Positions 10,492 to 55,600 of a stretch of 64,000 nucleotides of DNA are shown here, piece by piece. Positions within the stretch are counted from its first letter, which is position 1. Each line of letters begins with the position of its first letter. The stretch is taken from positions 1,702,001 through 1,766,000 of the forward strand of contig JASJOG010000003.1 in the NCBI GenBank assembly GCA_030142905.1, written 5' to 3'. The DNA is from Heliopora coerulea (taxonomy: Eukaryota > Cnidaria > Anthozoa > Scleralcyonacea > Helioporidae). A program made the translations under genes and the position numbers. The notes beneath the pieces were generated by a model. That model was not told where the DNA came from. It was given only the letters and a program-made list of their open reading frames with translations, and did no database searches.

Positions 10492-10497
10492 GTACTG
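10492..10497. repeat. Left target-site duplication GTACTG
   Basis: GTACTG directly abuts the left terminus and is repeated exactly at 14783-14788 beyond the right terminus. Confidence 0.9.
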
Positions 10498-10507
10498 TAC
10501 GGTGGCC

Positions 10508-10722
10508 CGGAAAGGCAAAACGCAACAATAAATTGAACAAAACACAACAACAAATCCAATAGAACACAACAAGAAATTGAGCAAAACACAACAAGAAATT
10601 TGGCAAAACACAACGAGAAATTCGGCAAAACACAACAACAAATTGAGCAGAACACAACGAGAAATTCGGCAAAACACAACAACAAATTGAGTAAAACACG
10701 AGAAATTCGGCAAAACATCACA
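10508..10722. repeat. Left subterminal repeat array, ~22-bp unit
   Basis: About nine units begin CAAAACAC followed by AACAASAAATT. This low-complexity array keeps overlapping minus-strand frames open (10445-10757), giving spurious Cys/Phe/Val-rich peptides. Confidence 0.85.
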
Positions 10723-10805
10723 AATCTACATCTGCTGACCATAAAACGACGGCACATGGCTCACACGGCTATGTTTCAACCAGATCAAGGTTTGGAGCAT
10801 TCTCA

Positions 10806-12828
10806 ATGTTTTGCTCCAATTGTGGATTAAATTTGAAGGATGGCTGCAAGTTTTGTTCCAGTTGTGGCAAAAATGTTAGTAAAACCACAACAAATGACTT
10901 GGGTTCTGATGCTTTCACAACGAGGAAGAAAAGACCTTTGTCCTTCAATGAATTTTATAAGTCGAAAAGTGAGCAACGCACGAAGAAATCCTCAAAACGT
11001 GAAGATGAACTAATCAACATCGGAATAATGAAATATGCTAATGAAGAAGTTAAACCCGTAAGAGGGAAGTCATTGCCTCTGAAAATTAAAAAGAACTCTG
11101 ATTACAACGTTGTCCATCAAGCCGCCATTAAAAAGCGGCGTGAGTATGATCGGTCGTTCAATAATAACATTCAGTGGCTTTTAGTTTATCAGGATGGGAA
11201 AATTGCGAGAACCCTTCCAGGTTCAGATGTAGAATTTACTTTGAAAGGATATAAAGATGACTGTGGTAAGACATTTGCAAGAATAACATTGTATTTGTGT
11301 CCCGCTTCTGAACACGTCCAAGACAACGCCACTGAAGAGATCAAAACTGACACAAAACCATCAGATCTTTCACCATGCAATGAAAGTTTGCATGGTCAAA
11401 ACTTGTTCAACTGCGATGATGAATATGATGACGTTGTCTACCACGAAAATCCCGAAGAGAATGTTAACTTAGATGAAGCATATTCTATCATGAAAGAATT
11501 ATTTCCCGATAAAGGAGATAACGTGATTAAACCAATTGTAGAGCAAGCGGACGGGGATGTTAATGTCGTGGCTAATTTGTTGGCAGAAACTACCACAAGC
11601 ATCTCAAATGCACCTCCTGAAGCACCCCCTCTAAATCAGCATGCTGATCAGTGTTTGGAAGTAAAGAATTTCCAGTCACTTGATGATTTCTTGCAGTTCA
11701 AGCGCCGTCATTTTGATGAATCTAGTGCTTGTAAACGGCTTCGACTAAACATAAGAAGAAGGAAAATTTGGTCTGATGTTATGGAAAAGTTAGCTTTGTT
11801 TACGAACCCTCGTAAACCAGAAGCTTGTGATGTATGTCCTCAGTTAGATATTAAATTTATTGGTGAGGAGGCGGTTGATCAAGGTGTTAGCCGTGAATTT
11901 TTTTCTTGCATTTTTGAAGCTACTTTGCAAAAGATTATGATTGGGAACAACGAAAGGAATTATCAGACCTTCTTGCATGACAGCATTGCCCTTGAAAGTG
12001 GTCACTACTATTCATATGGTGTTCTAGTTGGATTAGCATTAATTCATGGATGTCCTGGCCCACACAACTGGTGCCCAAGTTTGGCCCATTACATTCTTGA
12101 GCAAGATTGCATAGTTAATCCTAGCCATGTCCCTGACCTTACTGTGTGAGAAAAACTGATTGCTCTTAGCGTATGTACATCAATGGAAGAAATGGAAACT
12201 ACTCTGGACAATTTTCCAGAAAGGTTTGATGCGGGGTATAACAAAGTGAAGATATCATTGGAAGATCGAGATGGCATGATAAACAAGGTAGCACGTCACT
12301 TTGTCATAAGTCAATGTCATGAAGAAATTCAGCAAGTTATTGCTGGACTAAATGACGTAGGAGTCCTTCAATGTCTAAAGCAATTTCCAGATGATGCCAT
12401 CAAGCAATTGATACCTTCTGATGACGTCACTTCAGAGTCAATTTTGCAATTTCTGAATGTAGTATATTCTCCTCAGGGATCTAACCGATGTCATCTACAA
12501 CCTCTCTCATTTTTTAGAACAAGTACAAGCAGGAAATGTAAGTTGTCAAACTGTTGATTTGTCAGATGTTGATGACATTAAAAGTGTTAAGTTATCACTC
12601 AATGATATTCTTCAGTTTTTGACTGGAGCAAGACATTTTTGCTCAGTATTACAGAAGGGTGAGATTGAATTTAATCATGAGGCCCCAGAAGGCAAGAGAC
12701 TTGAAGTGAGCACATGTGCATTTAGACTTTCAATTCCTTGCAACAAACGGTACACTGAGTCTGCAGTAGCATTCATACATAACATAACAGAAGACATCAT
12801 AAGCTCTCCAGGATTTGGAAAAATATGA
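10806..12828 (+). pseudogene. HECT-domain E3 ubiquitin ligase carried by the transposon (one nonsense, one frameshift)
   Basis: Starts with a zinc-ribbon-like MFCSNCGLNLKDGCKFCSSC (residues 1-20). A conserved middle block follows (LLVYQDGK...FARITLYL, ~125-165), then a CUE-like helix segment (YSIMKELFPDKGD, ~225) and a HECT N-lobe (IKFIGEEAVDQGVSREFF, ~355). The C-lobe near 12700-12830 carries the catalytic Cys in STCAFRLSIP. HECT ligases take ubiquitin on this Cys and pass it to substrates. An in-frame TGA at 12147-12149 interrupts the N-lobe, and a one-base frame change near 12475 separates frame 1 (10806-12557) from the C-lobe frame (12559-12828). It resembles G2E3-type HECT proteins that are multicopy in some invertebrate and fish genomes. 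No introns needed. AATAAA at 13083-13088. Confidence 0.85.
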
Positions 12829-13082
12829 GTAACTGATATTAAACAGACTATAGGATATATGTATATACATGCCTGTTGGCATTATATTTTAGATGCAGCA
12901 TTTGTTAATATTCTTGTTTATACTTTTACACTGTATGTTATTGTTTAAAGTTACAATTTGTACCTTTTATACAAGTGGTACATCTACATACAAGAACTTT
13001 TTTAAAGCCTTTAAGAGAGTACTTTGAAACATTCTGATAAGCCATGGAACTATTAACACACTGTATTGTTTATTTTATTGTT

Positions 13083-13088
13083 AATAAA
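13083..13088 (+). terminator. Poly(A) signal for the HECT gene
   Basis: AATAAA 255 bp after the HECT stop codon. Minus-strand AATAAA motifs at 13067-13078 and near 13135 would serve the convergent integrase gene, so the two 3' ends overlap. Confidence 0.55.
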
Positions 13089-13223
13089 AGAGCAAAAACA
13101 AATTGAATCTGAGATGCTAATTCTATTAATAGTTTTTATTGTTGGTGATCCCTATTGTCATTTAAGGTTAATGGATAATATCAGCCATGGTTGTTGTATC
13201 TTATAATGAAGAGTGGTTGTTGC

Positions 13224-14446
13224 TTATTCATCTGAAACCTGTAGAAGCATCTGGTACAACCGTAGAGTATCCCTCCAATTCGTGGGATGACTAAAGTTGT
13301 AATTGTTCATCACATATATAAAGTAATCTTTGAAAACTGATTCATTTACCGGCTCACGGCAGTAATTTTGCATATCAGCAATCATGGTCTCATCTACTGG
13401 ACATTTAAAATTTTCAGTTGAGAGGAAGTAGAGTGCATCCGGTCGTCCTCCAATTGTTTCGTGCCTTGAATGACGTATTCTGTGTGTATTCCAGTGTTCT
13501 TTGACTTGGTTTAGGTCGATTTCCAAAACATGAGAAAAGAAGAACCAGAGACATTCCACGTGCAATTCAGACCCAGTTTCAACTATTCCACGCTCAACCA
13601 AATCTTTGAAAAATTCTTCCACCAATGTCCTTTACCCCGAGAATAGAATGACCACCAATTTTCAATTCTTTGATTTGAGGGGGAGGAACCATACCTATGA
13701 CTATTAATTCCTGAATGCTCATCGTTTGATGCTTGCCGAACGTAACACTGCATAGCTGCCATAACACCGTTCTCTGTTCCACAATCCGTTCGTAATATTT
13801 GGGGACAGGCCGTGTATTGGCTAACACATTCTAGAAAGTGATGAGCCATTATATGTGGGCCGTTGTTAGTTCTTCCAACCTTTAACCATAGAATTTTACG
13901 GCTGTACCCATCTATGCAACCATGGATTGCAAAACCAAAGGGTTTTAATTTATCGTGACCATCAACATGCCAGCACCAGTTTGGTCCTGGATTTACGTAC
14001 TGTCTTCTTCTGAACTGGTGTCGTTTACGTTGTTCTGTTCCTTCCGGGTCAACCTCTCGAAGTAACCGTTCCACCGTCGCCCTCTTTGCTTGAATGTTAT
14101 GCTTAATTCTAAGGTGGTGCCACATGCTTCTATAGCCTCTTGAACTGCCAGGGCTGCTTATTTCTTCTTCGATATACTGGCGAACTTGATTTTCGTCAGT
14201 CTCCTGGTAATCTTTTCTCCGTAACCCAAATTCACGTAGCCTGTTTTTTAACGTTCTAAGACTCATCTTGATGCCGTGTTTCTTGTGCAGGAAAAGCCGA
14301 ATTTCTTCGTACTCATAACCGAATCGAAAATAGTGGCGGATCAAGCTCTCTTCCTTCTCCGTTGGACACCCACATTCAAAGCAAAAATTGTCAGTATGGG
14401 AACAAGTTGCACCACAAACATCACAAGACTGTATTTCATCTGCCAT
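13224..14446 (-). pseudogene. DDE integrase-core transposase of the HECT transposon (one frameshift)
   Basis: ATG at 14446-14444. Residues 6-26 form a zinc ribbon (CDVCGATC...CFECGCP) like that at the start of the HECT protein. A helix-turn-helix-like region follows (YEEIRLFLHKKHGIKMSLRT), then the integrase core with WHVDGHDKL (first Asp), LRTDCGTEN (second Asp) and NQRIENWW (Glu). The second Asp and the Glu are about 40 residues apart. Family integrases of this type insert the element by DDE chemistry. The frame at 14446-13583 shifts by one base near 13620 (after GHWW) into 13625-13224, which supplies the C-terminal part (EEFFKDLVERG...) and the stop. It is convergent with the HECT gene. 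Confidence 0.87.
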
Positions 14447-14554
14447 GTAAAATTCAAAAGACGATGCTACAATATAATTAACTATCGTTATATTCGATGG
14501 GATAAGCTAGAGAATACCAGTCAAATTTTCTGTACTTTTCCGAGATGGTTGTTA

Positions 14555-14770
14555 CAGATTCGTTGTTGTGTTTTGCCGAATTTATCGTTGTGTTTTGCTC
14601 AATTTATTGTTGTGTTTTGCCGGATTTGTCGTTGTGTTTTGCTCAATTTGTTGTTGTGTTTTATTGCATTTATTGTTGTGTTTTGTTCAATTTATTGCTG
14701 CGTTTTGCCCACCTGGGCCAATAAATTTGTTGCTGTGTTTGAAAGTATTTGTTGTTGTGTTTTGCCCCTC
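14555..14770. repeat. Right subterminal repeat array
   Basis: Reverse-complement copies of the left array (GTTGTGTTTTG words at ~22-bp spacing), ending against the right terminal inverted repeat. Confidence 0.82.
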
Positions 14771-14782
14771 CGGGCCACCGTA

Positions 14783-14788
14783 GTACTG
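14783..14788. repeat. Right target-site duplication GTACTG
   Basis: Exact copy of the six bases at 10492-10497. Confidence 0.9.
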
Positions 14789-15617: not shown

Positions 15618-52078
<36,461 letters not shown>

Positions 52079-52603: not shown

Positions 52604-55600
52604 ATGATGGGACCCACCGAACCTGTTGGTATGTATGTCATAATAGAAGATACACGTTAGTATTTTGACAAAATGTTCAACTATGAAAGTTTGTAAGTTG
52701 GGCGATCACGATTCATGACTAGATATCAGTTCACCTTTACGCAAGACCTTGTCACCGGTATTTTAGGTAGTCATCGTCTTCGTTTAGGACTCACAAATAT
52801 GACTGTTACATTAATGTGAAATGAATAATCAGTATACTTCCCTGATTTTGAATAACTTTCATCCAAACAGAGTGCCAATATATTTCTATAGTAGAACAGT
52901 AAGATTACAATACGTGGATAGCGAAACGTTTCTTGTGTCAACCTCTAATAAAAATGAAGTTAGACAACTGGGGTTTTTCCCAAAAATACTAATTCAGTGA
53001 GTTCTGTAGTTTTGTGGTAAAAATGTTTCAGTTATACACCGTACTGAATGACTAAAATGAAAGTTTTCGAGCTAGAACGCAAAGTATCGTAGTAAATCTT
53101 CAACCATCCCGTTTTGTTGTTAAGTATCCGGAGGAGTGATTTCCTATAATGGTGATTCAGAACGCGGATGGAATGATCCTCCAACTTTACCATTTACTGG
53201 CGTTACTGCTTCAAAGAAACCCCCCAAACTTGACTTGAGAAAGCGTGTGTCGCACCAAGAGGCATTGACTGGTCGAAAGATAACGTCGCCATCGAATCAG
53301 AACTATTCGAACCTATATAACCAAGCTAATCAGCTTACTAATGGTAAGAAAAACTTACATTTTTTGAAAATTTGACTCATTGATAATTAAGATTCCCATT
53401 GCTTCGCTGGGCTGGGTCACTTTCTTATTTTATTTTTTTTATTTTTTTTTTGTTTTGTTTTGTGGCTGTTGTGTTCGTTTCATAGTTACAGTTCGCTGCA
53501 GCCAACCGCCCACTAAAACATAAACGTCGCTTTAGAAAGTAGGATTATGTTAACACAAGCATTATGATACTTTTAGAATGAACTAATCGAGCCTTATTGA
53601 TCACAGTCGAATCATCTTGCTCACGCAAATCACACGTCATCATAACCGTCTATAATTTGTCAAGAACCTTGTGTTGTTAATATTTGGCCATTTATGCATG
53701 ATTTACTCAAACTAATTTCGTTTTATACCTTTGTGTTGTTTTCAGTCCATTTCACCGTTTTTTAAATGTTATTTTCGGAATTTTATTTTTAAAAACTTTC
53801 AATACAGATAAAGTGTAATATTGAGAAATAAAACTAAGCTGAAGAACAAAGTGTAATTTTGTTAAGTGTTTTTACTTATGCAAGCCAGTCTGGAAAGTTG
53901 TGTTTCAGAGTTTTGAAAAAGTGCTTACATAATTCTTATCTTTTATTTTTTGGTGATTTTCATAGGCTTATCAAAGTTGACCTTGGAACAGCAACAGACT
54001 GCATTTCAACCAATTCAACCTAGTGTGTCTCCAGCCATTTCTCCATGCCACAGTCGGCATTCAAGTGGCTCATTTACACCTCCACTGGCCACTGAATGTC
54101 AAAACTTTGCTGCTGTTGCCAAAAATCCATCCCAATGTCATATTGAAAGCCCTATATCTGCATGTAGTCAACCATCTGTAGTGAATCTTCCATCTAAGCA
54201 TTATAGTATGGATATGCAGGTCCCAGAGACCACAGGCGTCATAAATACATTGACACTGCAAACAACAAGTACACCAAAAGTATCATCACCACCTTCACTG
54301 CCTTCCAAACTTGGACAACCATTATTCTCTTTTCCTAATAGTCTTAACATGCTACCAGTTTCAAGTGCCTTGGATTCAACCCATGTTCGGTCAAATCCAG
54401 ACATTTTAGTTGATACATCACAGCATACTAAGAACTCTATGGATGAAAGGCAACTTTCAGCAAACACATCACTTGTTTTTTCCAGCCAAGAGACTACACC
54501 TGTTCCACTGATTTTTACACCATCTCCAACTGGTATAAATAATTTTACTACATCATCAAATGATCCTGTAGGGAAAACAAGTCCAGTGCTCAATAAGACT
54601 TACCCGAATGGCCCAGCTTCTAGTCTTCATACATCACCATCACAAATAAATGGCAGTGGTAGAGACTCTCCTTCAGTTTTTCCAGCTCCTCCACTGCATG
54701 TGATAAACAAATCACCAACTTCAACACCAACTAGAACCCATAGTCCATGTAATACATCAAGGAGCACAACTCCTGATAAGGGATTCAGATCTACTGATGG
54801 TAGTCGGCATAACAGTGAAGACTTTGACAGCCAAGAAGCTATCAAGGTCACTTCAGAAGCTCTAGAAGAAACCATTATAAAATGTAGCAGTATATTGAAG
54901 GTATAGTACTGTGCATATTGTACATAAGTGCCAATAAAGAAAGAAATTTCTAAATTCTCTTTAATTTTATTAATTTTATCATCATAACTGCACCAAATAT
55001 ATCAGTATCTAATAATTATTTTATTAAATATCCACCAATAAAATACAAGAATAAAAATGTAACATACTGTAACAGCATAACATTACAAAAAGGTAAATCA
55101 CAGGCCAGCAGAGCAAACCATAAACTGAAACTGACTACAAACAGAAGTTCTGAAACAAAAGGAAATGCTTAAAATTTTATGGATGACAACAACTTTAATC
55201 AAAAGTTAAAAACTATACTGCTATTAATGTAAACAGTTAATCTTTCCAAGTGAATAGATTTGATGATTTTTTTCCTGAGTTTGTTATTACAGTTAACCTG
55301 GTGGGGCAAGAGTCTAAAATATTGAACATGGTATTTGAATTTAGTAAAATTATTTACATTATAATTTTACTACTTATTTGTATAATTTATGTTTGGATAC
55401 AGGTTATAATGTAGATAGTGAGATAACTGAAAATTATAAAGGCCTAACTTACATTGAAAAAGATAATCCAGAAGAACACAGAATTTCAGCAGTAAACAGT
55501 TGAGTTTGGTCAATTGCTTTTTATAATAGAGATGGCTGGAATACCAATGGTATTATTAAATCATAGCCAGTAGCACAACACCCTCCAATGTATTATAATG

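Follow-up and report, generated by a model that had tools for sequence, protein, structure and literature searches.

What is an E3 ubiquitin ligase gene doing inside a DNA transposon? The question is raised by a 4,285-bp element at positions 10498-14782 of the stretch of Heliopora coerulea DNA analyzed here (C223:1702001-1766000, 64,000 nucleotides, hereafter the window), in which a HECT ligase gene (plus strand) and a transposase gene (minus strand) are convergent, tail to tail, between the termini (Table 1). The first-pass annotation had described termini, a target duplication and subterminal repeats enclosing both genes, and its coordinates proved exact. The subterminal repeat pattern occurs 14 times in the window, against 0.05 matches expected from shuffles, and all 14 fall within the two subterminal regions of the element. 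Neither gene is intact in this copy. The reading that we favor, at a probability of roughly 0.6, takes the element for a cut-and-paste transposon of IS3EU type, with the HECT ligase as its regular second gene, acting at the element ends.

Table 1. Features of the transposon, with positions counted from the first base of the window.
Feature	Position	Strand	Basis or remark
Left target-site duplication, GTACTG	10492-10497		sequence
Left terminal inverted repeat, TACGGTGGCCC, 11 bp	10498-10508	+	imperfect repeat reaches ~10555
Left subterminal array, 22-bp unit, 8.4 copies	10515-10699	+	
HECT E3 ligase gene, broken	10806-12828	+	TGA at 12147, frameshift near 12.5 kb; open in C759
N-terminal C4 zinc ribbon of ligase	10806-10874	+	Pfam PF13240, E 4e-5, 23.7 bits (cut-off 25)
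Ubiquitin-like (beta-grasp) domain	11004-11303	+	transferred from C759 ligase residues ~71-170
CUE-like segment	11493-11585	+	below Pfam cut-off in window copy
HECT domain	11739-12828	+	Pfam, relatives' scores, fold match
Codon of presumed catalytic cysteine (STCAFRLSIP)	12715-12717	+	36 residues before C-terminus
DDE transposase gene, broken	13224-14446	-	frameshift near 13.6 kb; open in C759, 405 codons
Integrase core PF24764 rva_4 with D, D, E	13610-13999	-	Pfam
N-terminal C4 zinc ribbon of transposase	14369-14425	-	read from sequence
Right subterminal array, 22-bp unit, 6.6 copies	14563-14709	-	
Right terminal inverted repeat, complement of TACGGTGGCCC	14772-14782	-	perfect over 11 bp
Right target-site duplication, GTACTG	14783-14788		sequence

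When the 430-Mb host genome was searched with the left 263 bases of the element, 10 matches were returned, corresponding to both ends of five copies that are 93.7-98.1% identical. Exact 6-bp duplications, all different, flank four of the five (GTACTG, CTTTTC, GATCTC, and ATATGG), and no target duplication was found for C544, the most diverged copy. Both frames are open in C759 (683 codons for the ligase and 405 for the transposase); C79 has an open ligase frame and a transposase with one stop. The ligase had been assigned to the element at first pass, and copies lacking it were sought as a refutation, which fails because all five copies found with these termini hold both genes.

The element belongs to IS3EU/GingerRoot by its ends, the length of its duplication and its transposase. 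As characterized in the available part of Kojima and Bao (2023; PMC10045372), IS3EU/GingerRoot elements have TA..TA termini, 6-bp duplications and a DDE transposase without an HHCC motif, all shared by the element described here; membership is assigned on these traits. TACGG..CCGTA termini are found in the window copy and in the divergent elements C17, C62, C748, and C412. Where the first-pass annotation had spoken of a DDE integrase, a DDE transposase is indeed present, but it is frameshifted and its Pfam match is to PF24764 rva_4 (76 bits against a cut-off of 26, and 110.8 bits in C759), rve remaining below its own cut-off. Catalytic residues D161, D219, and E260 (numbered on the 405 residues of C759) are spaced by 57 and 40 residues and are invariant among 16 sequences. 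Upstream of the core the HHCC motif is absent; many transposases have a C4 zinc ribbon instead, followed by HTH-like stretches that score below the Pfam cut-off.

The ligase of C759 (P0139, 683 residues) is composed, in order, of a C4 zinc ribbon, a ubiquitin-like region, a CUE-like segment and the HECT domain. Its ubiquitin-like region was modeled with a pLDDT of 84-97 per block of ten, and the fold matches of residues 71-170 are mostly ubiquitin-like folds. CUE scores above the cut-off in the relatives P0002 and P0013 and in C223, where the zinc ribbon passes as well. The HECT assignment held for the gene once its breaks were masked: when the pieces of the window ligase were searched singly, one of three matched HECT, at 13 bits against the Pfam cut-off of 23.9, whereas masking both breaks with an X brought the HECT part to 28.9 bits. 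The match in the window copy is thus a weak one. Scores below 23.9 were also obtained for C759 (23.1 bits, just under), P0001, P0007, P0008, and C311 (23.5 bits); values are higher in relatives further removed, reaching 58 in C62, with 48.9 for P0002 and 31.8 for C223. The model of the C62 ligase has a mean pLDDT of 62.4, with the N-lobe mostly at 67-93 and the C-lobe below 50. Compared with the PDB using Foldseek, it gave 88 matches at E <= 0.001, the best being the HECT of WWP2 (4.7e-8), and the best 50 of the 88 all contain a HECT ligase. The catalytic cysteine of HECT ligases lies ~30-40 residues before the C-terminus, with a Phe at -4. All 23 ligase tails read (those matching the end of the HECT profile built here, with some copies counted twice via two loci) have the cysteine, 31-37 residues from the end; Phe at -4 is present in 20 and absent in P0008, P0017, and L028, and the Thr preceding the cysteine is missing in three (L024, L026, and L031). 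The ligase has the usual catalytic residues and is predicted to be an active E3 serving the element.

Comparison of the two open ligase frames, C759 and C79, gave a dN/dS of 0.31 (22 of 40 changes non-synonymous, p = 0.0005), and that of the transposases of the same copies gave 0.26 (13 of 25 changes, p = 0.002). Further ligase comparisons with C759 gave 0.42 for C25 (p = 0.008), 0.66 for C544 (p = 0.007), and 0.61 for the window copy (p = 0.15), all pairs involving C759 sharing that sequence and hence not being independent; outside these, values were 0.54 for C750 against C48 (p = 0.01) and 0.79 for C223 against C61 (p = 0.1). Significant constraint was thus absent in two of the six ligase comparisons, those of the window copy and of C223 with C61.

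The pairing of ligase and transposase extends well beyond this family. A transposase query of the genome gave at least 106 matches (103 of 489 candidates scored), clustered to 90 loci, and a ligase query gave 74 matches at 45 loci. Within 6 kb of one of the 90 listed IS3EU transposase loci lie 28 of the 45 ligase loci, where chance alone would give 0.11, and every one of the 28 has a transposase convergent to it; five of the 28 are the element's own family, and copies inside the other families are not independent of one another. One further pair, on C310, is non-convergent and consists of a second, more distant transposase next to the same ligase. By the ligase query, no partner was found within 6 kb for 17 of the 45 ligase loci and 61 of the 90 listed transposase loci, many of the partnerless loci being fragments and diverged ligases being missed by this query. 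An independent search of the genome with Pfam HECT found 15 of 46 HECT clusters to be linked, all 15 convergently, and this generic profile adds a ligase to three more transposase loci (one on C16 and two on C759). It did not list the element's own family because the HECT of that family is too diverged.

With the element's own family set aside, a HECT lies within 1.5 kb at 14 of the 24 best-matching transposase loci, and longer DNA or coordinates add a ligase at C223b, C412, C61, C445 (tail only), and C311 (23.5 bits). The ubiquitin-like part alone was seen at L040, no ligase was found within ~4 kb at L027 and L041, and L032 and L035 were left unextended. On the transposase tree, ligase evidence is present in six of seven clades, grouped by eye, that of the C311 clade being marginal. 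The remaining clade (C745 and C90, decayed copies) has no ligase within ~4 kb, and the ligase may therefore be dispensable. A ubiquitin-like N-terminal part lies upstream of HECT in 8 of 10 diverged elements examined, and the ligase families that keep the cysteine are ~30% identical. Ends were sought at 10 flanked loci. Four gave both as TACGG inverted repeats, with duplications matching at 6/6 positions in C748, 6/6 in C412 (where the ligase is internally shortened), 5/6 in C62, and 1/6 in C17; at C709, C244, and C124 the right end only was found, and at C112, C223b, and C311 neither end.

These observations show that the ligase is old, conserved across deep clades and no recent cargo. The first-pass annotation had left open whether it was cargo or a functional part of the element, and the second option gains, because the ligase recurs convergently in diverged IS3EU elements, its cysteine is kept, and it has accumulated fewer amino-acid changes than neutral (p = 0.0005). 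The matching position of a ubiquitin ligase in widely differing members of this family of animal transposons suggests a part for protein tagging in their movement or survival.

Both proteins tend to begin with the same type of zinc ribbon. A C4 ribbon near the N-terminus was found in 62 of 121 transposases and in 15 of the 16 ligases examined. In one clade (clade C, comprising L022/L051 on C412 and L062/L019 on C223) the terminal arms reach 122-128 bp into both genes, so that the two proteins start almost alike. For the ribbon of a catfish ligase (P0016), the nearest match is the ribbon of a medaka transposase (P0113), with a score of 90 and the next at 68. In the element's own family the two ribbons have diverged, and that of the ligase is not closest to that of its own transposase (permutation fraction 0.14).

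Two possible functions had been named at first pass, degradation of host restriction factors and regulation of the transposase. We propose that the zinc ribbon of the ligase, being of the same type as that of the transposase, would recruit the ligase either to the ends of the element or to the transposase. There it would ubiquitylate proteins assembled at the site, most likely the transposase complex, so that these could be taken apart, or their dosage controlled, once cutting or insertion is over. That the ligase acts on the transposase complex itself is a narrower claim, to which we would give slightly less than even odds. A stronger form, which we advance only tentatively, would make the transposase and a dedicated HECT ligase obligate partners in each IS3EU element, with ubiquitin transfer built into transposition: both proteins would be steered to the ends by their ribbons, the ligase would remodel the transposase-DNA complex, and the arms, which in one lineage encode the start of both proteins, would thereby keep the pair matched.

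The same conserved second gene with its retained cysteine would also be expected if the ligase were directed at host defense, ubiquitylating and removing factors of the chromatin, small-RNA or DNA-damage machinery by which the element is silenced or kept from inserting. The TET/JBP gene of fungal IS3EU, proposed to aid escape from silencing in the accessible part of Kojima (2025; PMC12730594), lends this some precedent. However, no host target is known, and defense alone leaves unexplained a zinc ribbon that is shared with the transposase and near-identical to it in one clade; we consider this rather unlikely. It is from the fixed pairing with the transposase and the shared ribbons that we infer an active E3 at the element ends instead. 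Catalysis itself could be doubted, the HECT protein being then a ubiquitin-binding scaffold or a transposase partner whose CUE-like and ubiquitin-like parts function without it; the divergent HECT scores (such as that of C759), the three tails without Thr before the cysteine and the three without Phe at -4 would fit. Yet the cysteine is present in every tail read, among families only ~30% identical, which makes a non-catalytic protein improbable.

Capture of a host HECT gene by one family only, in which it now rides along, could draw on the many HECT places in the genome (31 of the 46 clusters are not near a listed transposase). It is very hard to reconcile with linkage and convergence in six of the seven transposase clades, even with one of these marginal, and with the ubiquitin-like part that recurs upstream of HECT in most of the diverged elements. 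No support at all was found for two separate mobile elements or genes lying together by chance: exact termini and duplications enclose both genes in the own family and in the divergent C748, and all 28 linked ligase loci have a convergent partner. This last explanation is refuted by the copies at different places that carry different 6-bp duplications, and we give it practically no weight.

RAG1/RAG2 and ProtoRAG likewise form a transposon lineage with two genes, one of whose products has E3 ligase activity; there the activity resides in a RING part of the transposase, which is of another superfamily, and not in a separate HECT protein as here. IS3EU is already known, as are the accessory genes of fungal IS3EU (PMC12730594). 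In the part of Kojima (2025; PMC12730594) available, fungal TET+ IS3EU elements resemble ours in their TAYGG..CCRTA ends, their 6-bp duplication and a second gene opposite to the transposase, but that gene is an alpha-kinase and a TET/JBP gene is added; the words ligase, HECT, and ubiquitin are absent from the main text. HECT is not named in the available part of Kojima and Bao (2023; PMC10045372), no literature searched pairs IS3EU with HECT, and a HECT ligase as the regular second gene of IS3EU was not found in that literature, though Repbase notes may hold it. According to the available part of Bao et al. (2010; PMC2836005), OTU or Ulp1 domains are present in Ginger1 transposases, which thus also join an integrase-like transposase with ubiquitin or SUMO pathway enzymes. 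Unlike the ligase described here, these protease domains lie at the end of the transposase itself, and Ginger1 duplications are 4 bp rather than 6 bp. No Pfam match to OTU or Ulp1 was found in P0139 or P0140 up to an E of 0.1, and the main text of the Ginger1 paper (PMC2836005) makes no mention of HECT. From ubiquitin and SUMO proteases in DNA transposons, the same paper, in the part available, proposed a role of the ubiquitin pathway in transposition (Bao et al., 2010; PMC2836005), an idea that can be tested directly on a transposase and its dedicated, deeply conserved partner E3 ligase.

A Paramuricea protein named G2/M phase-specific E3 ubiquitin ligase (P0008) has a homologous HECT part and a ubiquitin-like region; it differs from the element's ligase in being annotated as a host gene and in having no zinc ribbon. 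Such names may often mark transposon genes, in which case some animal genes annotated as G2/M-specific E3 ligases would belong to transposons.

Several other features were noted. A second IS3EU-like element, with ends TACGGTGTCC..GGGCCACCGTA and 19/38-bp subterminal repeats, lies at 41685-44076 of the window. No transposase was seen in it; it has two 902-nt arms, 98% complementary, each holding the N-terminal (ubiquitin-like) part of a ligase gene, and its duplication is possibly GAAATT, with one additional base at left. At L020/L070 (C445:3345500-3351700) a frame of 333 residues, mariner/Tc1-like as judged by eye, interrupts an IS3EU copy. Downstream of the decayed transposase at L041/L068 (C745) are frames of 413 and 391 residues that, again by eye, have a viral or Polinton-like look. 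Open frames of 278 and 329 residues at 15618-16454 (minus strand) and 53917-54906 (plus strand) of the window may be host exons.
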